A stretch of DNA of 34,887 nucleotides. It comes from a virus. Below the pieces are notes generated by a model that was not told where the DNA came from, made no database searches, and was given only the letters and a program-made list of their open reading frames with translations. The DNA is taken from positions 1-34,887 of the IMG/VR virus record IMGVR_UViG_3300043436_001336. The stretch is one strand, 5' to 3'. Shown in pieces: positions 7,453 through 34,887 of the stretch. Made by a program: the position numbers and the translations under genes. Each line of letters starts with the position of its first letter. The first letter of the stretch is position 1.

Positions 7453-7845
7453 TTAAATAGGATTGGCCTTAATCTGACGACCATCTAACACTACGGGGCT
7501 AGCGCCATCATGGTCTATGTAAAGGCCCACTGGCATTTTACCGCCAGAGATGAAGGAGTGGGCAAGGGTTACCCACACTGTCTTACCTGCCATACCAGGG
7601 TGCACTGGGTACGAGAAGTGACCAGTGTAATCAGCCTGTGCTGTATTAGGGTATCGGCAGAAGCGGAAACGAATAATGTTAGGTAGGCCGGAAGCGGGTA
7701 ACTCTACCTGAACTGTTGTTTCCCATAGGTTGCGACGGCTACGCAACGAGCCCTTCCAAGATGTCTTACCATTGATGCGAACCTTAGTTGCATCGCTTCC
7801 TGGAATGCTTTGCTTATCTTTATTTGATACTACTTTGTCAATCAT
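7453..7845 (-). CDS. Hypothetical protein after endolysin, 130 aa
   Basis: The start overlaps the endopeptidase stop (TAATG), so it is probably co-translated with it. The product is predicted mostly beta (WETTVQVELPASGLPNIIRFRFCRYP, TVWVTLAHSFISGG, PVGLYIDHDGASPVVLDGR), which looks like a small beta-sandwich. It might bind cell wall or sugar as a partner of the peptidase, which has no binding domain of its own, or it may be a virion decoration. No family is recognised. It is the promoter-distal last gene of the virion operon. Confidence 0.6.
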   Translation of the reverse strand: MIDKVVSNKDKQSIPGSDATKVRINGKTSWKGSLRSRRNLWETTVQVELPASGLPNIIRFRFCRYPNTAQADYTGHFSYPVHPGMAGKTVWVTLAHSFISGGKMPVGLYIDHDGASPVVLDGRQIKANPI

Positions 7846-8246
7846 TATGCGTCCAATGTTTTCTGTGGGTTAACTGGCTTACTTGTGCTCCAGCGAGGTC
7901 CAGTTCTTTCACCGAAGTGAAGGTGTGGGGCTGTGCTCTTACCTGAGTTACCAGAGTGCCCAAGCAACTGTCCTTTATGAACCTTCTGTCCAGGCTTAAC
8001 AAACACCTCAGAAAGGTGAGCATAGATTAAGTGGTTCTTAGTTCCAAAAGGAAAGGTCCTGCGCTGAACTATGTGCTTACCATAGTCCTTGCCCCAGTTA
8101 TTAGCAGTGATTACGCCTTTACGTGCTGCGTAAACGTACGTACCAACGGGACAGGCAAAGTCAACACCATCGTGCCAACCAGATTTCCAGATTTTCCCCT
8201 TGGCTCCGTACTCTTTTGAGATACGTGAGTTTACAACTGGATACAT
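7845..8246 (-). CDS. M23 family (LytM-like) endopeptidase, probable endolysin
   Basis: The 133-aa protein is a bare peptidase M23 domain. It shows HDGVDF (His25, Asp29 as Zn ligands), YAHLS (His77) and HLHFG (His108, His110), with the usual glycine-rich strand GQKVHKGQLLGHSGNSG before the last motif. M23 enzymes cut peptide cross-links of peptidoglycan. There is no signal peptide, so a holin is needed for release; the holin-like gene lies three bases upstream. The lack of a cell-wall-binding domain is unusual among endolysins and might be compensated by the next gene. Confidence 0.85.
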   Translation of the reverse strand: MYPVVNSRISKEYGAKGKIWKSGWHDGVDFACPVGTYVYAARKGVITANNWGKDYGKHIVQRRTFPFGTKNHLIYAHLSEVFVKPGQKVHKGQLLGHSGNSGKSTAPHLHFGERTGPRWSTSKPVNPQKTLDA

Positions 8247-20991: not shown

Positions 20992-21915
20992 TTAGTCAGC
21001 AATGCTTGAGTCAGACTCAATGCGGTATAGGCACTCATCGCGGTAGATTGCGTGACCTAGTACGCCGTACCAACCCATTGGGCGTAGACGCATCAACTTG
21101 TCAGTCACAGGACCAACTACCATGTGTGGCTCTTCTGCCACAACTTCAGCAAGTGCTTGCTGTCCAGCGAAGAACGTTGAGTAAACGCCTGCTACTGGTT
21201 CGATACGTGCAGATTCTACGAAGAATGCACCTTCGAAAGCACCGATTTCACCAGCATAGATGTTGCCAGTGTCCTGGTAGTTGTGTGGAGCACGCCATGC
21301 AGCCGCATCAGATTCAGCACGAAGGTCGTGTGAAACTTCTGGGTGAATAGCGGACCAGTACATGCTACCCTTACGGTATGGAGCCTTGTTAGCGCGCAAC
21401 TTAGCAACAACGTAACGAACGTCTGCAGCAGTGATAGTACCGGTAGCATCTACGCCACCTTCTGCGAAGCGAACGTTTTCACCATCAAGAAGGATATCCT
21501 TAACGATTTCGTCGATGCTGTCAGCCATGTTGAATGCAAGGATGTTAGCAATCGCTGGGTCTACGTCTGCTAGAGAAAGCAGGTTCAACTTGCGAGTGGT
21601 AACAGTTGCATTGCCATACTCTTCTAGGGTTACAAGAACCTTATCTGGAGTATCTAGACCAACTGAATCAACATCAACAGTTTCTGTTAGTGTTGAAGTC
21701 TTGCGAGCAAGGTCCTTGTACTTCTGTAGTACTACGGTTTCGCCTGGGTTAGTTAGGGACGATGGACGCTTATCTGCAACGGCGCGAAGCAAAGGCTGTG
21801 CACGCAGTTGGAATTCGATAAGACGGTCATACGCCTTCTGTACTAAACCGGCATCACCAGCGGTTCCACCAAGAGCCGAAGCGGCGGTGGAGTTAAAGCC
21901 AGTTGTATTAGCCAT
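20992..21915 (-). CDS. Major capsid protein, N4-gp56 family-like
   Basis: The 307-aa product begins NTTGFNSTAASALGGTAGDA and contains LIEFQLRAQPLLRAVADK, LEEYGNATVTTRKLNLLSL and ANILAFNMADSIDEIVKDIL, followed by IHPEVSHDLRAESDAAAWR. These match the HK97-fold major capsid proteins labelled N4-gp56 family in databases. The length is usual. It follows the acidic scaffold gene and has AAGGAA before ATG. It forms the icosahedral shell. Confidence 0.85.
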   Translation of the reverse strand: MANTTGFNSTAASALGGTAGDAGLVQKAYDRLIEFQLRAQPLLRAVADKRPSSLTNPGETVVLQKYKDLARKTSTLTETVDVDSVGLDTPDKVLVTLEEYGNATVTTRKLNLLSLADVDPAIANILAFNMADSIDEIVKDILLDGENVRFAEGGVDATGTITAADVRYVVAKLRANKAPYRKGSMYWSAIHPEVSHDLRAESDAAAWRAPHNYQDTGNIYAGEIGAFEGAFFVESARIEPVAGVYSTFFAGQQALAEVVAEEPHMVVGPVTDKLMRLRPMGWYGVLGHAIYRDECLYRIESDSSIAD

Positions 21916-21947: not shown

Positions 21948-22445
21948 CTATTCACTGCCGAAAATCAGATTGAGAAGTTCTTCCTCGGTCTGTGCCTGAT
22001 TAATACGGAGAAGGGCATCTTCTGCGCGGTCAGGTGACATAGCACCAGAGGTTACGGCATCAATCTGACGCAACGCAGCCAAGTCGGCTGAGTCTACGGC
22101 AGTTCCCGCATTTGCGGAAGGCACACCAAAGACATCTGCATAATCCTCAAGCCATGAATCAAAGTCGCTAGACTCTACATCAATGTCTTGTGGAATGAAT
22201 GCTGCAATCTTTGGGCTGATGCCCTTGGATTCTAAAATGGATTTGACACTGGTATCACGAGTTGTCTTCCGGAGTGACGATAACTCAGATTCCAATTCTT
22301 TAATACGCTTTGATTGTGAACGTTCTGCACGACGCAACTTCTTTACAACATCATCACCAGATGAACGCCGTGGCGTAGGTTGTTCGTCTAAATCGTCCTC
22401 AAAGTCGTCTTCGAAGTCGTCCCATTCTTGAATGTTGTTACTCAT
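21948..22445 (-). CDS. Capsid scaffolding protein
   Basis: The 165-aa product is highly acidic at the N-terminus (WDDFEDDFEDDLDEQ), then has a coiled coil (KLRRAERSQSKRIKELESEL) and a helical C-terminal half. Acidic, helical proteins of this size directly before the capsid gene are scaffolds in most tailed phages. No protease motif is seen. It starts after a 126-base leader, so scaffold and capsid may have their own promoter. Confidence 0.8.
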   Translation of the reverse strand: MSNNIQEWDDFEDDFEDDLDEQPTPRRSSGDDVVKKLRRAERSQSKRIKELESELSSLRKTTRDTSVKSILESKGISPKIAAFIPQDIDVESSDFDSWLEDYADVFGVPSANAGTAVDSADLAALRQIDAVTSGAMSPDRAEDALLRINQAQTEEELLNLIFGSE

Positions 22446-22571: not shown

Positions 22572-23444
22572 TTAGACTTGGCGTTTACGGCGCAAGCCAG
22601 TTGAAGAGGCACCAGTTCCACCTTGGAACTCTGCTCTTGCCTGAGAACGTAAACTAGTTACATTCTGAGAATTTCTCTGAAGAACATTCTGTTGTTCAAG
22701 TTCAGATTCTAAATCTATACCTTGCTGACCAAACTGACTTGCAGCCTGGCCTAGACCAGAAAGTTCTGCTGCAGTCTTCTGGTATCCGAGGCGGGCCGTA
22801 GAGCGTTCTACACCCATCTTAAATAGTTCTTCAGCATCAATCTTGTTTCTTAATCCAAATTCAGATGCAGATGCACGAACTCCTGCGATATCAATCTTCT
22901 TCTTAAGTTCTTCTGCTCCCGCTTCACCAGTTAGTAATGCTCTGGCTAGGTCGGTACGACCTATGGTAGGGAAGTTCTGTTGAAGTTCAGACTTTAAGTA
23001 TTCATCAGCATTGTCAATAGCATAGAATGCCATAGATAGACGTTTTTCAACTTCTACTGCATCCACATCTCCACCGATAATATCTGCAATATTTGCATCA
23101 TTACCTAAGTCATTTAGACCATACTTTTGAAATTGCTTTTTCATTTCTTTAGACATGGTAGCATAGTCAGCAACAGTTGGAATATACGCAACATTGTAGC
23201 CAGCGGCTCTGCGCTGCTTCAACTTAAAGATACCAGCAAAGCGGTCCTTGTAAGCCTGTGGCGCATTCTCGTCAGTTAGAAGTAAGTCAGGAATGTCTGC
23301 ATCCGTCATTCCCATATTGTAATACTTTTGGGAAGCGTTATACAGAGATAATAGCCATGGTGCTTCGGTATCAATGTTATCAAAGAACGCAGAGAACTGC
23401 TGACGAAATACTTCGTAAGCAGGTATTTTTGTATCTTCAGCCAT
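22572..23444 (-). CDS. Probable internal virion protein, 290 aa
   Basis: The helical product starts AEDTKIPAYEVFRQQFSAFF and has a Gln-rich C-terminal coiled part (LGQAASQFGQQGIDLESELEQ), ending with Arg/Lys-rich GLRRKRQV. It follows two other probable internal virion proteins with TAATG overlap, and comes just before the scaffold. In podoviruses such helical, Gln/Ala-rich proteins form the core stack ejected into the host (as T7 gp14-gp16). No enzymatic motif is visible. The role is inferred from neighbours and composition. Confidence 0.6.
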   Translation of the reverse strand: MAEDTKIPAYEVFRQQFSAFFDNIDTEAPWLLSLYNASQKYYNMGMTDADIPDLLLTDENAPQAYKDRFAGIFKLKQRRAAGYNVAYIPTVADYATMSKEMKKQFQKYGLNDLGNDANIADIIGGDVDAVEVEKRLSMAFYAIDNADEYLKSELQQNFPTIGRTDLARALLTGEAGAEELKKKIDIAGVRASASEFGLRNKIDAEELFKMGVERSTARLGYQKTAAELSGLGQAASQFGQQGIDLESELEQQNVLQRNSQNVTSLRSQARAEFQGGTGASSTGLRRKRQV

Positions 23445-24382
23445 TATGCACCAAATCCAAACGCTTTAGCAAATGATGAACCAAGGTTCTTTGCTTCCTG
23501 TTGAGCCATTGTACTATACTGAAAACGAGTGTCCCCACGTAGGTCTGCACGGAACTCATTAATAGTTTTAGTATAAGGCTTACCTTCTTTTGTAGTTGCT
23601 GTTAACGCCTTAGCCAAAGTATTATCCATAAGGGATATGTTCTTTGGGTTAATGTCAAGCATTGTAGCCATAGTCTCAATGTAATCAGAAGCAGCATCAC
23701 GTACAGTAAGTGTTGGGTCCTGAGTTAGACGCTCTGCCAGTCCACCGTATAGCGAAATAGCGCGCTTACGGAATGATTCCTTCTGAGCATTTTCATCAGT
23801 CTTACCTAGAATAATGTCAAGTGAAGTTCCAATTGCGCTAGCATCAGTTAGGGTAATACCCATATCAGCAGCGTAAGTCTTTAGACTGTTGATTGTCTGA
23901 CCAGCAATACCGCCAACTTCTTGGCCTTCTTGAATGTACTGTCTGGCTAAGCCAACCGTAAACTCATAAAGAAACGCATTGTTATCAAAAGCAAAACTTG
24001 TGCTCTTGCTTCTACTGGAAGAAGAATCGGAACTACTACCAACAGTATTTCCAAGAGCATCAACACCGCTAGTAGAGGTTCCTCCACCACCGCTCTTGCT
24101 TGAACTTGTGCTAGCATACTTTTTTTCGGCTTTATTAAGAGCCTTAAAGTAAGCGTTCTTTTCAGCAGCAGTAGCACGACGACCAAATAGAGCAATCATT
24201 TGCTGGTCTAGTTGTGTGAAAGCAGACTCTTTTGGAGTGATGCTAAATGACTTACCACGACTTGAACTACTAGAACTGCTTCTAAAGGTTGAAGTGGTAC
24301 CAGCGCCACCAGCAGCAATTGTTCCCTGCTGTGTGGCTATAGCAGCATTATCTGCTGCCGGACCGCTGTTCTCGCTTGCCAT
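23444..24382 (-). CDS. Probable internal virion protein with Ser-rich linkers, 312 aa
   Basis: Two Ser-rich disordered tracts (STFRSSSSSSSRGKSFS near residue 35 and SSSDSSSSRSKSTS near residue 120) flank a short helical unit FTQLDQQMIALFGRRATAAE. The C-terminal 180 residues are helical (LARQYIQEGQEVGGIAGQT, KRAISLYGGLAERLTQDP). Disordered N-terminal segments suit passage through the narrow portal. TAATG overlaps connect it to the giant gene and to the 290-aa gene. No family assignment. Confidence 0.6.
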   Translation of the reverse strand: MASENSGPAADNAAIATQQGTIAAGGAGTTSTFRSSSSSSSRGKSFSITPKESAFTQLDQQMIALFGRRATAAEKNAYFKALNKAEKKYASTSSSKSGGGGTSTSGVDALGNTVGSSSDSSSSRSKSTSFAFDNNAFLYEFTVGLARQYIQEGQEVGGIAGQTINSLKTYAADMGITLTDASAIGTSLDIILGKTDENAQKESFRKRAISLYGGLAERLTQDPTLTVRDAASDYIETMATMLDINPKNISLMDNTLAKALTATTKEGKPYTKTINEFRADLRGDTRFQYSTMAQQEAKNLGSSFAKAFGFGA

Positions 24383-27300
24383 TATTTAACTCCATTAAGT
24401 AGTGGTGAATCAACAATATTTAACTCGTCCTGAGACAAGTAACGTGTATACATCTGTTCAAACTCAGGGTTCTGAGTAATAATGTATTCCGCCATACGGT
24501 CACGCCATTCAGCAAATCTTTGATTAGCCTTAGTGTCGAGACCCTCAGTACCAGTTAAGGCGCGATTCTTTTCTAGTTCAGCAATGATTGTCTCACGACC
24601 TTCAAGATACATTTCTAAACCCTTGACTGCCTTGTTCTGGCTACCAACGGTTGACATGAACTTCTCGTCTTTTGTAAAGTACAAGGCTAGTTCAATGAAC
24701 TTATCACTCTTTTGAAGTGTAATTCGGTTCTCTCTTGTATCCCAGATAGGGTACTGTCCACCAACATAATCAGCAAGACGCTCTTTCCATGGGCTGTAGT
24801 ACTCTCTGTAAGCAGTACTGCCCTTCTTGATGCCATTCTTTTCTGCATCCTTTTCGATATACTCTAAGTTATCAAAGTAGGTTGCCCAACCAGCGGACAT
24901 CTGTGCACGTCGTTCTGCATCTTCAGGAGACATGTTACGAGACTTTAATGGTTCACCATTAATCTCAATGCTGTAAAGAAGGTCATCAGCAATAGGACTG
25001 TAGTTTACGTCATCACCAGGAATGTTAAACAATTCACCAATGAATGGGTTGTCTTCATACAGTTGTGCTGCTCTACTTAGAGAGTCGGCATTCTTCTGAA
25101 CTCCCTTGACGGTCTGAGTATTGCTAATCAAACCAAATCGGTTATCTGAAGTAGATGAACGAAGTGTTGAAACTAGACCGCTAGCAAACATAACACCCTG
25201 AGCGTCAAGTTCACTTACTAACTTTACTGAGCCTTCAGAGTAACCAAGTTCGTTTTGGTACTTAGTTAAACGACGGTTAAGGTCCATCATCTGTGAATCT
25301 GCAGTCTTACCAGCAACAACTGGACCAATGAAAGATGAAGCCGATTCAGCCATTAGCGCACGTCTAGCAATGCTTTCTGCTCTTGCAGTAATTATATCTG
25401 GGTCTAGTGCTTCATCATCCATAATCATGTCAGCAACAACTTGGTCGCGAGCAGCATCTAGTCTTGCAACCCAACGTTGCTGTACCTGAGGAACTACTTG
25501 CTCGATGATTGGCAATGAGCCAGTCATTCCATAAGTTGCTGCTAAAGCAGATATGGTTGCAGAGTTAAATGGAACTGCAGCACTTTGAACGTTGCTTAAT
25601 AGGCTACGTCCATATCCCTTTTCATAGAATGGGAGAATGTGTTTGCTTGAGAATTCATCAAAAGTAATTCCGTAGTTATTCTGTAGGAATGCATCAATCT
25701 CTGTGTTCTTTGCAGCAGCCTTAATTCCCTCAGTCGCAATAACTTCACCAACTGGTCCACCAAAGGTAGGAATAACAGGAAGTTGTCCTTGAGTAATTAC
25801 ATCTAATCCAGTAGGGTTAATTGTAATGGTATCTCTACCAACAACTCCGCGAAGCCACGCAGAATTCAAAACAATGTTTTGCTTTCCACTTTCTTTACCC
25901 CAAGGAGTTCCTTCTTCTACAAAGTTACCTTCTTCGTCATAGACATATCCAGAGCGGAATGGTGCATTGTAAGCCTTTGCTAGCATGTATGCTATTTCAG
26001 GATTACGTGCAGCAGTTCCAAGCCAGAAACGGCTTGAGTTCTGATGTGCCATGTAGAATGGTGTTAAGAAACGAAGTAATTTACCTGGACTTGTGTAGCG
26101 CTCTACAGAGTACAAGCGTTGCATAAGTTCTTTGTACGCTCTATCGGTAGCACCAATTTTAATGCGCTCTGCGTTTGACTCAATGTATAAACGAACAGAT
26201 TCTTCAGTGGCACCAGGAACCTTGCGGGCTTCTGCTTCGTACTTACGCGCCAATTTCTTTGCTTCTGCATCATGAACCATGCTAAAGAATGGGTGACGTA
26301 CAAGTCTATCTTCAGGCATAGTTCCAATAACGTTAAATACGCCAGAAACTGCATTCTTGTAAAGATTAGTAAATCTTCTATCTTGAAGGTCTACACCAGT
26401 AACAACCTCAAAGCGGTCACGAATGTGAATCTTTGCTGACTCTTCTGGAGTCATTCCATCAATAGCAATCTTATGAATGTTTCCATAGGAAACTCCAGGA
26501 ACACTGCTTGATGTTGGAAGGTATTGTTCAATTTGTGCGTATGTGACATCAAGTTGATTTTGGAACGAGAAGCGAGTATCCATGGCTCTGGCCATGCCAG
26601 TCATGTTTTCCTTGACTTCACGCTTCCAAGCAACTGCTTCTGGGTCACTTGAGTCTAGCCACTTACCAGCATCATCAAGAGCCTTCTGAGGAGACTTACC
26701 TTCTGCGAGACCTTCAATAATTCTACGTGCTGCAGCATCCTTCATTAGGACGTTGTTAATGTAGTCAGCATGTCCATTTGCCCAACGAACATCTGAGCCA
26801 TCAACTGGGCGAACAGCATGTCCTGCGTTGAGTGCACCGTGTCCAGTTACATTTCGCTCATCTGCAAGAACACGAGTTGAGGATACCTTAGAACTAGAGG
26901 CGTTACGAATCATGTCTCCGGCTTCGCCAGAAAACGCACGACCAATAAATACTCCAGGAGCAATTTCAATCTGGTCTTCACCACTGTAAGATTTACGAAT
27001 CTTACCAGTAGGTGCAATCTTTCCACCAAGAGTTGATAGTTCTCCCTGTAGGTCTGCGCGATTAACAAGCAGGTCAATTGTTTTGTCTGCGTGTACGTTA
27101 ATTCTACCTAAGGCAAACTTTGCATTCTCAAGAGCAAACTCAACACTCTGGGCACCATTGGCATTCTTAGTGCTTAGCACAGAGAAAGCCTTATCTGCAT
27201 CATCGCGGAACTTCGTAAGAGCAGTTACAATCTCCATGGAGTTTGAACGAGTTGCAACAGTTGCGGCTTCGTTGTACTTACCAGTAGCAAACAACTTAAT

Positions 27301-29910
27301 AAATTCGCTTCCGGCTTCTGAGCCGTAATCGCCCTCACCAGATACAAGTGGGGAAATCAATTCGCGCATTGACTTTACAACGTCATCTGCTTCTTTGATT
27401 CCAGAACTCTTGTAAGTGCGCAAAGCGCTTAACTGGTCTTTAACGATTATAGTAGAAAGAGCAAGTCCGTCTGCATCCTTAATGAGTTCCTTGTTGGACT
27501 CATCAATCATGATACGCTTTACGCTAAATGCAAGTTTTGTTCCACTTGTTGTAGGAACTATCTGCTTACGAATAATACCCTGTTCCTTGCGGAGGATATC
27601 TGACTTAGCATTAAACTCTTCTTTAGCCTGCTTGCCACTTTTCTTGTATGTGCGGTTGCCTAGTCCACGAGCAATTGCTCCTGGGTCGCGACGACCTTGC
27701 CACATGTCAACCCAGCCGTAGCCGTAGTAACTTGTGTAGTCAATCATTGAAGCAACAGTACGTAGGTAGCCTTCAGCAACGTTACGAGTAGTATACTTAA
27801 AACTTAGAAGGGTAAATGGTTTCCATGCGTAAGTGTAAAACTTGTCTAGGCTGTCTACCGCAACGTCATAACCAGTGCGAATGCCAGGACCAAGAATATC
27901 TTGATATAGTGAAAGACTTCCAGTTTGACCTTCCACAGCAGAACGCTCTGCAGTCTGCATGATTCTGCGAACGTCTGATGCGTCAAGACCTTCTTCAAGA
28001 ATACCGTCAAGAACGTTTCTTAAAAGTTGTGGGTTCTCAGCCATAATTCTGTCGAAGAACTTTAAGTCAACACTAAAGTGAATTCCAGGAACCTGAGTTT
28101 CTGTCAACTGGTTGTTAGCGAGAGCGCGCTTAACAGCATCAAAGTCTTCTGTTCTTACAGGACGACCTGCTTCTACAGCACGTTGTTCTGCTAGAGACTT
28201 AATTGCTTTATCCATGACAAGGTGAGCCTGCGGTGAACCACCATTGGCCTCATCTGTAACAGTGTACTTGGTTTCAAGTAGACTCTTAATCTCACGAGAC
28301 TTAGCACGGTTAGTTGACTGAATCAACTCACGGGCAAAAACTTCTGCTGCTTCTCTTTGAGTAGCATTAAGAACGTCAAGTTCCTTACCATAATGCTTTT
28401 GAAGCAAAGACTCAATGCCTTCATCCTGAAGGTTATCAAGGAAGTAGAATCGTTCTGACTTGCTTGTTAGGCGACGGTATAGATTGGACTTCTCTTTCAT
28501 CCAAGCAACGTCTTTACCTGCAAGTGTTCCAATTTGAGAGATTCGAGAATCTGCTTCTAGGAATGAACGTTCTCCAGCACGACCGCCAAGGTGGGCTAGT
28601 CCAGATGGAACTTCACGTAGTTGCTGGTTTGGGCTAACCCACATAGCAGCACGTACACCAAAGGTCTTCATGTTATTTGCTTTAGCAACTTCACGTGCTA
28701 AAGAGAACTTTTTCATTGGGTCAACATCTAGGAAGATGCCGTCGCTTTGACGTTCGGCTATGCCAGTACGTACGCGTTCAATGTATGAGTACTTGGACCA
28801 AGTTGATGTTACACCAAAGTCCTGTTCTACAACAGGCTTGAATGCTTCACGCTTTAGTAAGAGTTCTTCTTGCTCTTTAGCCAACTTTTCTTTTGCTTCA
28901 GCAACTTTGTCTTTGGCCTCAATGTTCTTAAGACGGTTCTCTGGTGACATCTTGATTTTAGAGTCAAGCAACTTACCAATTGCTGCTTCTTCATCCATAA
29001 TCTGCTGTGTCTTGCCAGTATTGTCCAGCAATAACTCGTATACGTTCTCGTACTGAGTCTTTACCTTCTCAAGGCTAGGCTTATGGCCAATAGATGCCTT
29101 GATAACATCACCCATAGCCTGACGGCCACCAAGTTTTTGTGCATCCGAAAGCATAACAGCATAACGTGCGGGGTTACTAGAGCCAGCGGCTAGAGGCATA
29201 GCCTGAATAGCGGCTAAGTTCTCTGGGTCCTTTTCAACCAACTTAAAAATCTGTGCAGCAGCGGTATCAGAGGCCTGATTGGTTACTGCTTCGTCTAATT
29301 CTGCAACTAATGCGTCAGTACGACCAAACTTACTGCCTGCTTCACGTGTAAACTGGCTACGCTTGATGGTTTTGAACGCTTTACCACCAAATAGACCCAC
29401 TGGGTCAAGGATATTGAAGCCTAAATCAGCAAAACCAGACCAGAACTGTGCAGAACCAGAGGTAAAGTAGTCGTTTACCTGCTTGGAGTCAGCCCAATCA
29501 ATCTTATCTGTGCCTTGTTCACCTGTAAAGTTCCAGTCTCCAATGAGACCTACTAGTGCACGTCCAGGAGATACGCTACGTCGCCACTCTTCTTCACCTT
29601 CAACAGTCTGCTTGGCTGACATGAAGCCTTGATTCATCTGTTCAATGAAAGATAGTTCTTGGTTCTGTTCACGATAGTTGCTGTTAAGTTGTAATAGAAC
29701 TGAGGTTAGACCTGGGGCAACGTAGTCGCGGTAAGGTATCGCTAACTTAGACAGAGTTGTAAGTGCTGGAGTAATATCTTCAGCAAAGTTCTGTCCAGTT
29801 TCACTACCAAAGAAACCTTCTACTTTGTTACCTAAGTAATCCTTGGCTTGCTCAAAAGGATTATCTGGGTTGTCAACCATAGATTGCACTGCATCAAAAG
29901 GATTAGCCAT
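24382..29910 (-). CDS. Giant internal virion / ejection-type protein, 1842 aa
   Basis: The single largest gene of the window. It is mostly helical, with aromatic membrane-seeking segments such as FWSGFADLGFNILDPVGLFG (near residue 155), KPFTLLSFKYTTRNVAEGYL and LLRFLTPFYMAHQNSSRFWL. There is no tape-measure heptad pattern and no visible lysozyme or protease motif. In T7 the largest gene, gp16 (1318 aa), is an ejection protein that lines a trans-envelope channel; size, helicity and neighbours support a similar role. Segments of the form FLTPFYMAxxN occur in large structural proteins of other phages. Not an annotated enzyme; a hidden catalytic domain is possible. Confidence 0.65.
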   Translation of the reverse strand: MANPFDAVQSMVDNPDNPFEQAKDYLGNKVEGFFGSETGQNFAEDITPALTTLSKLAIPYRDYVAPGLTSVLLQLNSNYREQNQELSFIEQMNQGFMSAKQTVEGEEEWRRSVSPGRALVGLIGDWNFTGEQGTDKIDWADSKQVNDYFTSGSAQFWSGFADLGFNILDPVGLFGGKAFKTIKRSQFTREAGSKFGRTDALVAELDEAVTNQASDTAAAQIFKLVEKDPENLAAIQAMPLAAGSSNPARYAVMLSDAQKLGGRQAMGDVIKASIGHKPSLEKVKTQYENVYELLLDNTGKTQQIMDEEAAIGKLLDSKIKMSPENRLKNIEAKDKVAEAKEKLAKEQEELLLKREAFKPVVEQDFGVTSTWSKYSYIERVRTGIAERQSDGIFLDVDPMKKFSLAREVAKANNMKTFGVRAAMWVSPNQQLREVPSGLAHLGGRAGERSFLEADSRISQIGTLAGKDVAWMKEKSNLYRRLTSKSERFYFLDNLQDEGIESLLQKHYGKELDVLNATQREAAEVFARELIQSTNRAKSREIKSLLETKYTVTDEANGGSPQAHLVMDKAIKSLAEQRAVEAGRPVRTEDFDAVKRALANNQLTETQVPGIHFSVDLKFFDRIMAENPQLLRNVLDGILEEGLDASDVRRIMQTAERSAVEGQTGSLSLYQDILGPGIRTGYDVAVDSLDKFYTYAWKPFTLLSFKYTTRNVAEGYLRTVASMIDYTSYYGYGWVDMWQGRRDPGAIARGLGNRTYKKSGKQAKEEFNAKSDILRKEQGIIRKQIVPTTSGTKLAFSVKRIMIDESNKELIKDADGLALSTIIVKDQLSALRTYKSSGIKEADDVVKSMRELISPLVSGEGDYGSEAGSEFIKLFATGKYNEAATVATRSNSMEIVTALTKFRDDADKAFSVLSTKNANGAQSVEFALENAKFALGRINVHADKTIDLLVNRADLQGELSTLGGKIAPTGKIRKSYSGEDQIEIAPGVFIGRAFSGEAGDMIRNASSSKVSSTRVLADERNVTGHGALNAGHAVRPVDGSDVRWANGHADYINNVLMKDAAARRIIEGLAEGKSPQKALDDAGKWLDSSDPEAVAWKREVKENMTGMARAMDTRFSFQNQLDVTYAQIEQYLPTSSSVPGVSYGNIHKIAIDGMTPEESAKIHIRDRFEVVTGVDLQDRRFTNLYKNAVSGVFNVIGTMPEDRLVRHPFFSMVHDAEAKKLARKYEAEARKVPGATEESVRLYIESNAERIKIGATDRAYKELMQRLYSVERYTSPGKLLRFLTPFYMAHQNSSRFWLGTAARNPEIAYMLAKAYNAPFRSGYVYDEEGNFVEEGTPWGKESGKQNIVLNSAWLRGVVGRDTITINPTGLDVITQGQLPVIPTFGGPVGEVIATEGIKAAAKNTEIDAFLQNNYGITFDEFSSKHILPFYEKGYGRSLLSNVQSAAVPFNSATISALAATYGMTGSLPIIEQVVPQVQQRWVARLDAARDQVVADMIMDDEALDPDIITARAESIARRALMAESASSFIGPVVAGKTADSQMMDLNRRLTKYQNELGYSEGSVKLVSELDAQGVMFASGLVSTLRSSTSDNRFGLISNTQTVKGVQKNADSLSRAAQLYEDNPFIGELFNIPGDDVNYSPIADDLLYSIEINGEPLKSRNMSPEDAERRAQMSAGWATYFDNLEYIEKDAEKNGIKKGSTAYREYYSPWKERLADYVGGQYPIWDTRENRITLQKSDKFIELALYFTKDEKFMSTVGSQNKAVKGLEMYLEGRETIIAELEKNRALTGTEGLDTKANQRFAEWRDRMAEYIITQNPEFEQMYTRYLSQDELNIVDSPLLNGVK

Positions 29911-30074
29911 TATTCACCAATCTTCTGATTATTATTAAGGGCAACTAGTTCGTTAATGAATTGATTGCGGTCTTCGTCGTTCTGCCAGTCAATTGAAGCA
30001 AACCCAAAAACAATGTCTGGATGCTCAGTACCTAGCACGTTAGTGAATGCCGCAATGTGATTCACTAGGCTCAT
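29910..30074 (-). CDS. Hypothetical protein, 54 aa
   Basis: This short ORF closes the gap between the 153-aa and the giant gene. Both junctions are TAATG overlaps (ATG 30074 on the previous stop; stop 29910-29912 on the next ATG). The product starts MSLVNHIAAFTNVLGTEHPD and ends ELVALNNNQKIGE. It is acidic and helical. No family is recognised; it may be a small internal virion or assembly factor. Confidence 0.6.
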   Translation of the reverse strand: MSLVNHIAAFTNVLGTEHPDIVFGFASIDWQNDEDRNQFINELVALNNNQKIGE

Positions 30075-30535
30075 TAACTATTCCTTGCTTGAGAGAGGAC
30101 TGATTTCCAAAATGCGATGTATCCAGGCGACTGCCCATCCTGGGCTGCCTGAGTATCTAACTGGTCTTTGTATGCTTTAATCATTGCGAAGCGGTCTGGT
30201 ACTGCTGGTTCTGGTGTCATTCCAGGCCCAGTCATATAACCGTTGGTTACTGGAACTCCAGGGTTCTGTGTAGGAGCATTGATTGGAAGTACTGGACTAG
30301 CCATGGTTGCTTCACGAACTTTTGCAGCGCTTGGACCCTGAGGTCGTGCACCTGCTAGAGACGCTCCCTTAGTTGCATCAGCAGTTTCCTTACGGTAACC
30401 ACGTTCGCCATTTGCAGGTATCTCTCGCATTGCTTGTTTAGTTCCAGCCATACCATCAGTCCTTTTTCCTGAACGAGGGTTCGACACTGCTGCACGCTTC
30501 TCATTTGATGGTGCGCGATATCCGCCACGTGCCAT
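30074..30535 (-). CDS. Hypothetical basic virion-region protein, 153 aa
   Basis: The N-terminal 80 residues are basic and low complexity (ARGGYRAPSNEKRAAVSNPR, KETADATKGASLAGARPQGP). A short C-terminal helical part follows (DRFAMIKAYKDQLDTQAAQD, YIAFWKSVLSQARNS). I recall similar proteins between portal and internal virion genes in related phages, without function. AGGAG sits just before the start. It may act as an assembly or packaging accessory. Confidence 0.6.
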   Translation of the reverse strand: MARGGYRAPSNEKRAAVSNPRSGKRTDGMAGTKQAMREIPANGERGYRKETADATKGASLAGARPQGPSAAKVREATMASPVLPINAPTQNPGVPVTNGYMTGPGMTPEPAVPDRFAMIKAYKDQLDTQAAQDGQSPGYIAFWKSVLSQARNS

Positions 30536-30536
30536 G

Positions 30537-31049
30537 TTATTCTCCTCGTCGTACTATCTGGATTGGTGCTCCAGAGTTAATGTCAAGTTTAATAGCAATC
30601 TTCATTGCTTCTTCGATGGATGCTCCTGCAAGAATTGCTCCAGTCGCCCAGTTCCCACCAGTGCCGATAGAATACGTATTAGTATTCGTACGTAAAACTG
30701 AGTAATCTTCACAAACATAAAACAACTTATTCTTTAGTCCGACAATAAAGACAGCGCCTTCATCATCTTTTAATACATACCCAGTCTCTTCATGCGCCCT
30801 GCGCATTGCTGGTACGAACTTAGATACCATGAACTTGTATAGGTCAGTTCCATCATATGCTGGAGGCTCCCAGCCATATGTTATGATATCACAATAGCGA
30901 CTAACACCTGCACCAGCAATAACATAATCACCAATTTCGGTAATCTTTTTAATGTCTTTGCTTATGTAGGCTCTTTCACCTTCAGTGGTCTGACTATCTG
31001 CCGCAAGCGTAAACCCTTTACGGTGTTGTACGCCTACGATAGTTGTCAT
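30537..31049 (-). CDS. Proteasome-beta/HslV-like Ntn hydrolase
   Basis: After removal of Met the protein starts TTIVGVQHRKGFTLAADSQ and has the exact proteasome active-site spacing: Thr1, Asp17 (AADSQT) and Lys33 (SKDIKKI). It continues with YVIAGAGVSRYCDIITY and a late SIGTGGNWATGAILAG at the place of the conserved glycine/serine loop. At 170 aa it is a bare Ntn-fold domain with no propeptide. Such enzymes are threonine proteases. It lies between portal and internal virion genes, where a prohead protease is normally coded, and no other protease is seen in the structural region. A role in capsid maturation or in host protein turnover are the two candidates. Confidence 0.75.
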   Translation of the reverse strand: MTTIVGVQHRKGFTLAADSQTTEGERAYISKDIKKITEIGDYVIAGAGVSRYCDIITYGWEPPAYDGTDLYKFMVSKFVPAMRRAHEETGYVLKDDEGAVFIVGLKNKLFYVCEDYSVLRTNTNTYSIGTGGNWATGAILAGASIEEAMKIAIKLDINSGAPIQIVRRGE

Positions 31050-31050
31050 G

Positions 31051-32820
31051 TTATCCGCCCATTGCCGAAAGAATTGTTGCTATGTCAGCCGGTGGCTGCT
31101 CTGCCTGAGGTGGTCCTGATGGTTGTTCCGTAGTTGGACCAGGTGGAGCCTGCTCTGGAGGAACGCCACCACCCATTGCTGCTAGCATTTGTTCTGCTGG
31201 CATAGGAGGTTCTGGCATTTCCATCTGTGGTTCAGGCTCAGGTGGAGCAAATGATTCTAGTACGGCATCTTCGATGTCCTTACCACGACGACGTGCCTCA
31301 ATTACAGCAGCCATCTTAGTAATAATATCTGATGGGTCTTGACCATTTGCAGCCATGCTAGGAATCGCTTGCGCTGTTGCGGCTAGTGAGCCAGCAAGAG
31401 AATCGCGCATACGTTCTACGTCAATCTTTTCCTGCTCTGCAGAAACGTTCATTGACCATGGTAGTTCGCGCATTACAAAGTCACGGGAAGCCAAGTTAGC
31501 CTGTAGTGCTTGTAGTGCAAAGATTAGTGCACGGTTAGGGTCAAGTCCAGCCATAAGGCCGTAACGTGCCTGAACTGTGTAGTCGCCACGAATGTCTTTT
31601 GAGGTATCGTATTCGATTTCATATGGTGTGCCAGTTTGCGCACCAGTAATCTTCTTGACACCGCCAAAGAGGCGTTCGTCCATTTCGAAGCAAAGGCCCA
31701 AAACATCTTCAAACAGTTCCTGAAGAATCTGCTGACCGGCCTTAACCTGCGTATCGAAACCACCGAGAAGGGCTTGCACACCAGAACCTGTAATGATGCT
31801 GGCATCAATAGTTCCAGAACGGCCTTCAGGGTATCGCGCACCCATGCGCATTTCGGACTCTAGAACTGCTTGTTCTTGGAATGCTCCCGAAGGAAGTTCC
31901 AGTCCTACTCGTCGGATACCTTGTGGGTTGGACGAACGTAAGATTGCGTCTGGTCCGAATGCGAATTCCTGTACATCCTGAGGAACAGCAAACGGAGCAT
32001 TAACTGACTTCTCCGCAGCATCCATGGCGAGCCATGCGAATCGTGCGCGAGCAAGTTGCGGGAAGATAACATCATCAAATTGTCCACGAGGGTCATCAGG
32101 GTCAATGCCAGGTCGGCGGGCAACAAGAGTTGTTACCTTACCCATTGGGTTCGTGGCTTTCTTTAGTTCTAAGTTATCCTTTTCAGGAAGGAATAGAAGA
32201 ATCTGGTCGCGGTCTTCGTAACGGATTAATTCCAGTTGCTGGTTCAGGTCCGTATTATCGCGGCCGCGACGGCCAAGGATTTGCGATTCATATTCAGGAA
32301 ACTCAACAATGAGTTCGCGAACACTCTTTAGGTATCGCTTGGTAAATGACACGATTCGACCGTGGCGGTCAAACTCTGGGTAAGCACCTAGTGGGTTTTC
32401 CACACGAATACGTGGCATAAAAGTTTCAAAGTCTGGTTCTATGGTAATTGGCAGGAAGCCATATGTTAGATACCAGTCTGCTCCGTAGTACATTTGGCTC
32501 TGAAGTTTCGAAGCCTGTACGTAATGGTTAGCAATTGTAGTCTTCTTATCAGCGCGTGCTTTAGCACGTTCGTTATCTCCTTTAACCGTTTGGCAGTTAA
32601 ATGAGGGAAGTGGTGCTAGTACCTCAGAGATATCGCGAGCAGCGACATCGATGAAGTTAGCAATCATTGACTGGGAAGCACCGTCTGGGAACATGTCTGG
32701 TGCAACGTTTGCCATGTTGCCACGGCGTACGTCAAGGACATCTGCCATGCGTTGGTCGCGAATGGCATAGCGCTGCTTAAGCGCTTCTACCTTATCCGAA
32801 ACTTGCATTACTGATAACAT
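31051..32820 (-). CDS. Portal protein
   Basis: From ATG 32820 (AAGGAT upstream) the product has 589 residues; a longer frame from 32865 would overlap terL and lacks a ribosome binding site. It follows terL, is helical with a beta-rich wing (MPRIRVENPLGAYPEFDRHG; VNAPFAVPQDVQEFAFGPD), has the clip/stem type segment GVQALLGGFDTQVKAGQQIL, and ends in a long Pro/Glu/Met-rich tail. Twelve copies form the ring through which DNA enters. Family-level similarity to podoviral portals is judged from layout, not a search. Confidence 0.8.
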   Translation of the reverse strand: MLSVMQVSDKVEALKQRYAIRDQRMADVLDVRRGNMANVAPDMFPDGASQSMIANFIDVAARDISEVLAPLPSFNCQTVKGDNERAKARADKKTTIANHYVQASKLQSQMYYGADWYLTYGFLPITIEPDFETFMPRIRVENPLGAYPEFDRHGRIVSFTKRYLKSVRELIVEFPEYESQILGRRGRDNTDLNQQLELIRYEDRDQILLFLPEKDNLELKKATNPMGKVTTLVARRPGIDPDDPRGQFDDVIFPQLARARFAWLAMDAAEKSVNAPFAVPQDVQEFAFGPDAILRSSNPQGIRRVGLELPSGAFQEQAVLESEMRMGARYPEGRSGTIDASIITGSGVQALLGGFDTQVKAGQQILQELFEDVLGLCFEMDERLFGGVKKITGAQTGTPYEIEYDTSKDIRGDYTVQARYGLMAGLDPNRALIFALQALQANLASRDFVMRELPWSMNVSAEQEKIDVERMRDSLAGSLAATAQAIPSMAANGQDPSDIITKMAAVIEARRRGKDIEDAVLESFAPPEPEPQMEMPEPPMPAEQMLAAMGGGVPPEQAPPGPTTEQPSGPPQAEQPPADIATILSAMGG

Positions 32821-32830
32821 AAATATCCTT

Positions 32831-34705
32831 TTACATGTAAATGACGTGTTGCTCCGCGTAGGCATCGTCTAAGTTTACCACTCCACGCTGGGCTTCTTGC
32901 CTGCGAGTAATAAAGCGGTTTTGTCCGAAATGTGTTACATTGTTTCCAGCACGTACGATTTCCTGTGCTTTTATCTCACAGAACCACAATGCCATAACTA
33001 AGTCGGTAGCACCTTTGGTGTTAGCCGACCAGGTTATTAGTTGGTTAATAAGAGCCTTAGTGTGCTCGTTGGTATTGTCTGGGAGTTCAAGCAGGTTGTC
33101 GTTCTGGAACTTTCCGTCTCGGATTGTACCCATGAGGTTAGACATGGCTGCCACGCCGAAACCAACGTCCCATTTATTCTTGCCTGTAAACTGTTCAGCA
33201 AGTCTGGTACCTCGGTTGGCGAGCCAGTGACGTAGGTCTTCATCTAGGGAGAACGCTTTCTGGAAAGCATTGATTTCAATGCGCAACTCCATAGGGCGGT
33301 ATCGCTCTACGAAGTCTTCGATTAAGGAACGAATCTTTCGGGGCGTAGGGTCTGACATGTTGTAGCAGTCAAGTACCATACGGTGGCCAGTCTCTCGTTC
33401 CACAGCATAAACAACTGCGGCGGTCTTACCAGACATGGCAGGGTCAAGGCCCATAATGGTTACCCAGTTACCACCTGCGGGGTGGCCAGGGGCATTTCGA
33501 TTAAGTGGCCCAGGCTTCCGCATTCGGTTGATGCAACCGTTAACCACCAAGGGTGGGAATACTGCGTCTTCTTCAACGTCTTGCTGTTGATATACCAGAG
33601 CCCAAGTTGAGGATGACACTTCGCCACGTCTGCGATAAAGTTCGCGTCCATCCCATTTGGGGTAATGCCCATTCTCGTCAGGGCTAGTATCTTCGTCACC
33701 ATCCCAGGGACGGTCTGACTTAGGCCAGAGAGTGACCCATTTCTCAGGGTCATCCGCAAACTCCAGTACCGCTGGCATTGCGAGATAAGTAAACGGGGAT
33801 TCGCCTTGTGCCCAATGGTCCTCGTTGCGGAGTTCCTTGTACAGGTCAACAGAGGAGACACGTGTTCCGGCGACAATTAATTTACCATTCTTACCCAAAC
33901 GGGTAATAACCATCTTTTGCAACCAGTTAAGTTGCTTTTCCCATTCATGGGCGTTAGTAGTACCCACAACGTCATCAAGAATGATGAGGTCGGCGCGAGT
34001 ACCGTAAATCTGCTGGCCAATACCCAGAGCCTGAACGGTTGGGTCTTTTTCGCCAGATGAGCGTTCCAAGTAGATTCTGTCCTGGGTCCATTGGTCCGCG
34101 GTGGCCTTATAGCCGCCAGCGGGTCCGTAGACTTGCTGCATCTTGAGCCAGGCTTCCTCAGTTAATCTTTGCTTGACTGAGTACAAGAATTCCTTGGCGC
34201 GCGTCTGAGTCTGAGAAACAAACACGATACGGATATTGGGGTCCATGGCTATACGGTAGGTAGCGTAGTTAACCGTAAGGACGGTGGACTTAGCATGCTC
34301 GGGGGGTACGTTTACTAGCAGGCGGTTTGAGTTACCTGTCATGTACGTCATTGAGTCATGGAGCCAGGAAGGCTCTTTTCCTTCTAGAACATCAATCCAA
34401 GACTGGTGATGTGGGAAAACCTCCATATTGAGGAATTCCTTAGAGAAGGTGGCAAAGTCAATCTTTTTGTCTGAGGCTACGTGCAGAGACGAGGTTACAG
34501 TCTGAGCGCCGAGCGAGGAGGCCTCATCTAACTTGGATGAGAACTTCGGGTCTTTTAGCCAGTTCCGGAGGACTTCCTTCTTGCGGCCTACGCTATTGAG
34601 CGCGGCTTCCACAGGGATTCCCTCGGATACGAGTTTTAATACGGAGGCTTGGTCATGGGCTAATTTAACCCGTGTATGGTGTAGGTCCCCACCTTTTGCA
34701 CCCAT
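32831..34705 (-). CDS. terL: Terminase large subunit with N-terminal HTH-like domain
   Basis: From ATG 34705 the product has 624 residues. Residues 18-50 (DQASVLKLVSEGIPVEAALN...VLRNWL) resemble a helix-turn-helix of small terminase subunits. ATPase motifs: Walker A-like VPPEHAKST at 133-141, Walker B LIILDD ending Asp244-Asp245. The nuclease domain begins TIMGLDPAMSGKT (Asp421), with LRIEINAFQKA and DLVMALWFCEI as later acidic strands of the RNase H fold. It packages DNA into the prohead. An earlier TTG 34717 is in frame but has no ribosome binding site. A separate small terminase gene is not seen here. Confidence 0.9.
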   Translation of the reverse strand: MGAKGGDLHHTRVKLAHDQASVLKLVSEGIPVEAALNSVGRKKEVLRNWLKDPKFSSKLDEASSLGAQTVTSSLHVASDKKIDFATFSKEFLNMEVFPHHQSWIDVLEGKEPSWLHDSMTYMTGNSNRLLVNVPPEHAKSTVLTVNYATYRIAMDPNIRIVFVSQTQTRAKEFLYSVKQRLTEEAWLKMQQVYGPAGGYKATADQWTQDRIYLERSSGEKDPTVQALGIGQQIYGTRADLIILDDVVGTTNAHEWEKQLNWLQKMVITRLGKNGKLIVAGTRVSSVDLYKELRNEDHWAQGESPFTYLAMPAVLEFADDPEKWVTLWPKSDRPWDGDEDTSPDENGHYPKWDGRELYRRRGEVSSSTWALVYQQQDVEEDAVFPPLVVNGCINRMRKPGPLNRNAPGHPAGGNWVTIMGLDPAMSGKTAAVVYAVERETGHRMVLDCYNMSDPTPRKIRSLIEDFVERYRPMELRIEINAFQKAFSLDEDLRHWLANRGTRLAEQFTGKNKWDVGFGVAAMSNLMGTIRDGKFQNDNLLELPDNTNEHTKALINQLITWSANTKGATDLVMALWFCEIKAQEIVRAGNNVTHFGQNRFITRRQEAQRGVVNLDDAYAEQHVIYM

Positions 34706-34887
34706 GTCAACATCCAATCAAAACAATAAACAAAACATATTACAAAGGACCGCGCAAAGCGGTCCGTTATACTAAAGAACTATACATATATACTAACCCC
34801 ATTAGAGAACTACCTGTAACGCATAGTTACAGAAATAATATAAAATATTTTTACAGAGACCAGGGGCAGGGGCAGAAAACCCAAACA
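34706..34887 (-). promoter_or_regulatory. Terminase-operon leader: two hairpins, AT-rich tract, CAGGGG repeat
   Basis: No ORF is supported in this stretch. It contains a perfect seven-pair hairpin GGACCGC-GCAAA-GCGGTCC (34747-34765), followed on the - strand by T-rich sequence. A second perfect hairpin is CTGTAAC-GCATA-GTTACAG (34814-34832), and CAGGGGCAGGGGCAG (34861-34875) repeats. On the - strand several TATA-like hexamers (GTATAA at 34767-34772, TATAGT and TATATT upstream) could serve as -10 elements for the virion operon. Which of them is used cannot be told by eye. Confidence 0.4.

Follow-up and report, generated by a model that had tools for sequence, protein, structure and literature searches.

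Why should a podovirus carry a proteasome-like threonine protease directly behind its portal gene, and is that enzyme the head-maturation protease of the virus? The question is raised by a stretch of viral DNA of 34,887 nucleotides (IMG/VR record IMGVR_UViG_3300043436_001336, positions 1 to 34,887; hereafter the window). The following genes of this linear and possibly incomplete record frame the problem.

32831..34717, minus strand: terminase large subunit gene (phrog_38, E=3e-64)
31051..32865, minus strand: portal protein gene, directly upstream of the hydrolase gene with a 1-nt gap (phrog_104)
30537..31049, minus strand: proteasome-like Ntn hydrolase gene, 170 aa, with a mature form from Thr1 after Met removal
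30074..30535, minus strand: 153-aa gene, function unassigned, a conserved neighbour and the other border of the accessory slot (phrog_8200, E=3.5e-5)
24382..29910, minus strand: 1842-aa gene, function unassigned, conserved downstream (phrog_10618; synteny)
21948..22445, minus strand: putative scaffold protein gene (phrog_7813, weak scaffold matches; aligns with a Dennebes protein annotated as scaffolding)
20992..21915, minus strand: major capsid protein gene, without N-terminal pro-domain (phrog_1357, E=4e-70)

The virus and its gene neighbourhood

The portal, the capsid and the gene order of the window match those of Streptomyces podoviruses of the Beephvirinae and of the unannotated phage ct2KA10, with the portal matching its counterparts in the Streptomyces phages and ct2KA10 at 46-54%, and the common order runs from terminase and portal through small genes, a protein of 1650-1840 aa and further late genes to scaffold and capsid. 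Judged from these sequences, the window is a podovirus related to the Streptomyces Beephvirinae, and it has a very large sister clade in IMG/VR. Kinship with the Streptomyces phages is the sole basis for inferring an actinobacterial host, and freshwater as the habitat of the clade is an impression from its contigs only. No tRNA was found in the window, and an M23 peptidase is encoded at 7845-8246.

The hydrolase gene had been described as lying between the portal and internal virion proteins. The upstream half of that description holds, but the identity of the downstream genes does not follow from PHROGs, which assigns them no function. Two Streptomyces phage proteins that match a 312-aa gene of the window contain NlpC/P60 and SLT domains, and these would be in keeping with tail or ejection proteins. 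The 312-aa gene itself (23444-24382, minus strand) is without NlpC/P60 and SLT, its two matches being adjacent genes (L082:12251-14865). The listed terminase and portal ORFs share 35 nt (32831-32865); since alignments with portal homologues begin at residue 11-17, translation of the portal probably starts from an ATG further downstream.

A group I proteasome homologue

As far as sequence and a predicted structure can tell, the product of the ORF at 30537-31049 is a proteasome-family Ntn hydrolase and a group I homologue, of the branch that comprises HslV, BPH, AAH, CPH and PPH. PHROG 1040 (phrog_1040, 'peptidase HslV family') matches the 170-aa protein with E=3.5e-32, the score against Pfam PF00227 Proteasome is above the cut-off (29.9 bits against 22.4), and a 33-sequence profile has BPH as its best match among solved structures (E=4e-10, full length), with HslV also matched. 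The protein begins Met-Thr-Thr (MTT) and has no propeptide. In comparisons with close relatives dN/dS is ~0.06-0.08, and selection therefore acts on the protein; together with the invariance of the catalytic residues in 177 sequences, this value places the hydrolase far beyond chance. No close bacterial relatives were found in two bacterial genome scans. Designed repeat proteins, the top phmmer matches of the hydrolase, were discarded as short matches to repeated helices only, and one homologue, from locus L215, begins MTVLAAYQ instead of MTT and retains Thr at position 1.

Residue conservation was read from 177 sequences, 132 of them distinct, in which Thr1, Asp17, Lys34 and Gly47 show no variation. 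The codons of three of these residues are as follows.

31044..31046, minus strand: codon of the nucleophile Thr1, invariant in 177/177
30996..30998, minus strand: codon of Asp17, invariant in 177/177 and aligned with HslV Asp17
30945..30947, minus strand: codon of the catalytic Lys34, invariant in 177/177 and aligned with Lys33 of HslV and the proteasome

The initial annotation had seen Thr1, Asp17 and Lys33 at the exact proteasome spacing. Thr1, which follows the initiator Met, and Asp17 stand, but the lysine had to be reassigned. Position 33 is variable among the 177 relatives (K, V, P, T, D or S), and it is Lys34 of the window protein that pairs with E. coli HslV Lys33 (63 of 63 in an alignment of E. 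coli HslV and 62 other phage sequences). The apparent spacing thus reflects the coincidence of a Lys-Lys pair, and because the equivalent of HslV Lys33 is Lys34, the hydrolase clade has one additional residue between Asp17 and the catalytic lysine relative to HslV.

The AlphaFold2 (AF2) monomer model is confident (pLDDT 92.9, pTM 0.89), and Foldseek returned Thiobacillus BPH as its best PDB matches (TM 0.78-0.80), followed by HslV and proteasome beta, with Anbu also found; matches in BFVD are phage proteins of like kind. Four helices are modelled, including both H1 and H2 (residues 49-57 and 69-87), and the final strand spans residues 163-168 without a C-terminal S12/H5. An H3/H4 insertion of the sort that would block a double ring is absent from the model. 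This compact subunit, free of insertions and of a C-terminal extension, is that of group I, nearest to BPH and then to HslV. Sequence, profile and predicted fold together bear out the proteasome/HslV-like threonine protease that had been proposed.

Relation to characterised homologues

Among characterised structures the nearest is that of BPH (PDB 5ovs, 5ovt, 5ovu), itself a protein with no known function (PMC5777263). It shares with the window protein the lack of a propeptide, the YALGA motif and the lack of an unfoldase partner (PMC5777263), whereas identity between the two is ~22% and BPH is a cellular, betaproteobacterial protein. In the hydrolase tree two BPH sequences, incomplete and taken from profile-search alignments, form a separate branch with long branches, and the window protein falls outside the BPH clade; because of such long branches the placement of isolate and cellular sequences in this tree is unsure.

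HslV (ClpQ), which gives PHROG 1040 its name, is similar in size and has aligned Thr1, Asp17 and Lys residues, but the window protein has its extra residue before the catalytic lysine and scores far below the curated HslV family cut-offs (27.7 bits against 137 and 157.75). No match to an HslU-type ATPase or AAA_2 unfoldase was found in the record, and a host HslU is possible.

Among the phage-borne groups, PPH (Proteasome homologue of Phages and their Hosts) consists of proteins of ~140 residues in which helix H2 is missing (PMC8665760). The window protein resembles PPH as a phage-borne group I homologue with no known function; membership is ruled out by its 169 residues and by the presence of both H1 and H2 in the model. 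AAH, a plausible home of the window clade, is a group I homologue found in many phages and abundant in Actinobacteria (PMC8665760). The 2021 survey in which PPH and AAH were introduced as group I homologues carried by phages found neither a functional context nor an unfoldase partner for them, and saw no actinophage with AAH (PMC8665760). A large and strongly conserved actinophage-associated clade is now documented. On the function of phage HslV-like proteins, only this survey and the BPH paper proved informative (PMC8665760; PMC5777263).

An optional gene in a fixed slot

In a scan seeded with the window's own portal, the hydrolase is present in 15 of 18 loci and absent from three (L103, L104, L107), and most loci of the sister clade have it directly after the portal. 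It is also absent from L111, L113, L126, L114, L115, L236, L243, L264 and L283, where an unrelated ORF of 77-87 aa or a bare gap is found instead; L111, L113 and L126 have an identical gene arrangement and are probably one virus. Portal and major capsid genes related to those of the window, in the same layout, are present in Streptomyces phage Immanuel3, whose complete genome yielded no hydrolase homologue with a profile that does detect E. coli HslV. Likewise, all 65 scored Immanuel3-type loci or contigs, a count that includes repeated contigs, have no hydrolase behind the portal. The loci are public contigs, duplicates and truncated ends included, and absence was scored only where a contig extends 1.3 kb or more past the portal, with L104 and L115 as exceptions that were read directly; a scored absence refers to the slot behind the portal, and the gene could sit elsewhere in those genomes.

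Hydrolase presence changes five times on the portal tree. In the hydrolase tree the podovirus copies do not group together, some falling with copies from unrelated large phages and some with that of phage DSL-LC01. The count of changes on the hydrolase tree is too high, because some rows labelled as other phages are truncated podovirus loci (L074, L108, L132), and the placement of L026, L037, L038, L053, L055 and DSL-LC01 is independent of these mislabelled rows.

Homologues elsewhere occur in diverse settings. Those of phages phi92 and Shewanella phage 1/4 lie near PhoH and ribonucleotide-reductase genes, that of Pumpernickel adjoins ThyX amid tRNA genes, and that of Pitbull is at the genome end; DSL-LC01 and D'Alembert have theirs surrounded by small genes at a distance of some kilobases from the terminase, L033 next to a CHAP endolysin, and L044 and L065 in what appears from sequence to be a recombination module. 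The PHROG 1040 proteins of DSL-LC01, LeeroyJenkins, Pitbull, Pumpernickel, phi92 and Shewanella phage 1/4 are homologous to the window protein over most of their length, at ~29-35% identity, but their gene neighbourhoods differ from that of the window gene, which stands directly behind the portal. Comparison of these loci shows the hydrolase to be an optional, exchangeable accessory gene, as opposed to a head-maturation protease, and the picture that they suggest is of a gene exchanged between phages, apparently lost several times, and under strong selection where it is present.

Proposed role and alternatives

The reading that we consider probable is that the gene encodes an accessory, probably ring-forming and unfoldase-independent group I proteasome homologue that acts inside the infected cell. 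Because the gene lies 1 nt behind the portal gene, the hydrolase is probably produced with the late genes. Host methionine aminopeptidase would expose Thr1, which would form a threonine-protease site with Asp17, Lys34 and a Gly47 oxyanion hole, the residues being identified by alignment. The compact subunit would probably assemble into a homo-oligomeric double ring, as do HslV with 12 subunits and BPH with 14, and the ring would work without an AAA+ unfoldase of its own on unfolded or selected proteins in the cytoplasm, which may be host, defence or unassembled phage proteins. General proteolysis may nevertheless be the wrong picture, because BPH was unable to replace other self-compartmentalising proteases in its discoverers' tests (PMC5777263).

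Because most loci of the lineage have kept the gene next to the portal, a virion-linked role is possible. A proteasome homologue may thus have been recruited in this podovirus clade to a late, portal-linked role, either as a component of the particle or as an enzyme that removes host or defence proteins while particles assemble; we regard this as unlikely, though if true a defined function could be given to a viral proteasome-like enzyme for the first time. Somewhat less likely is the narrower proposal that the hydrolase travels in or on the particle and reaches the host cell together with the DNA, for early action on host or defence proteins. Its gene does adjoin the portal and putative ejection-protein genes, but no packaging signal was identified, and the homologues of other phages are found in modules of early or middle type.

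It is doubtful, and a shade less probable again, that the protein is a peptidase or transpeptidase dedicated to a single partner protein, comparable to the connectase ligase, and not a degradative ring. The superfamily does include a monomeric ligase (PMC8665760), the record holds no unfoldase partner, and no role in general degradation was evident for BPH, yet the compact fold is nearest to the ring-forming BPH and HslV and lacks an insertion of the connectase type.

Head assembly is where the initial annotation had looked, proposing that the hydrolase may mature the capsid or internal proteins in place of a serine-type prohead protease. Such an enzyme is indeed missing, in that a search for S78, S49 and ClpP-type protease domains found none in this linear and possibly incomplete record. 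To our knowledge, however, no prohead protease is required by podoviruses in which the scaffold is a separate protein, T7, P22 and phi29 among them, and the missing family thus leaves no vacancy to be filled. In most loci of the clade the gene lies between the portal and late genes further downstream, a location that would suit a protease that removes the scaffold, or that trims capsid, portal or ejection proteins during assembly. The head genes, however, are not coinherited with the hydrolase, since relatives with related capsid, scaffold and portal genes, namely the Immanuel3-type phages and several sister-clade loci, are without it. The N-terminus of the major capsid protein matches those of hydrolase-lacking relatives from its start, with no extra domain that could serve as a pro-domain. 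Moreover, Microbacterium phage LeeroyJenkins has a hydrolase homologue and a separate annotated capsid maturation protease, and homologues in other phages are mostly away from head genes. Capsid maturation by the hydrolase was accordingly not borne out, and a head-assembly protease of the lineage is improbable.

Interference with the proteasome of an actinobacterial host, for instance through entry into its beta ring or capping of it, is very improbable: Streptomyces, the host genus of the related Beephvirinae, does have a proteasome, but the Streptomyces phages themselves are without the gene, the hydrolase resembles HslV and BPH more closely than it does the 20S beta subunit of bacteria, and the invariant catalytic residues point to an activity of its own.

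The slot as a natural experiment

Proteasome-homologue genes are already known in many phages, and those described are without known function (PMC8665760). What is new is a large clade, associated with actinophages, in which the gene has a constant but optional slot after the portal, and the pattern of its presence and absence there. With the gene at one constant place in numerous related phages and missing from others of their kin, the lineage constitutes a natural experiment, and the benefit and the substrates of the enzyme are therefore testable by deletion or swap.

The slot has other occupants. The ORFs found in place of the hydrolase (L103:2619-2879 and L104:3018-3257, and likewise in L114, L115, L236, L243, L264 and L283) encode 77-87 aa, mostly with an acidic C-terminal end, and represent at least two unrelated sequences. 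In some close relatives (L010:4021-4272, L013:7748-7999) a third small ORF, Lys-rich and of ~83 aa, separates the hydrolase from the portal, and the slot can therefore hold more than one gene.
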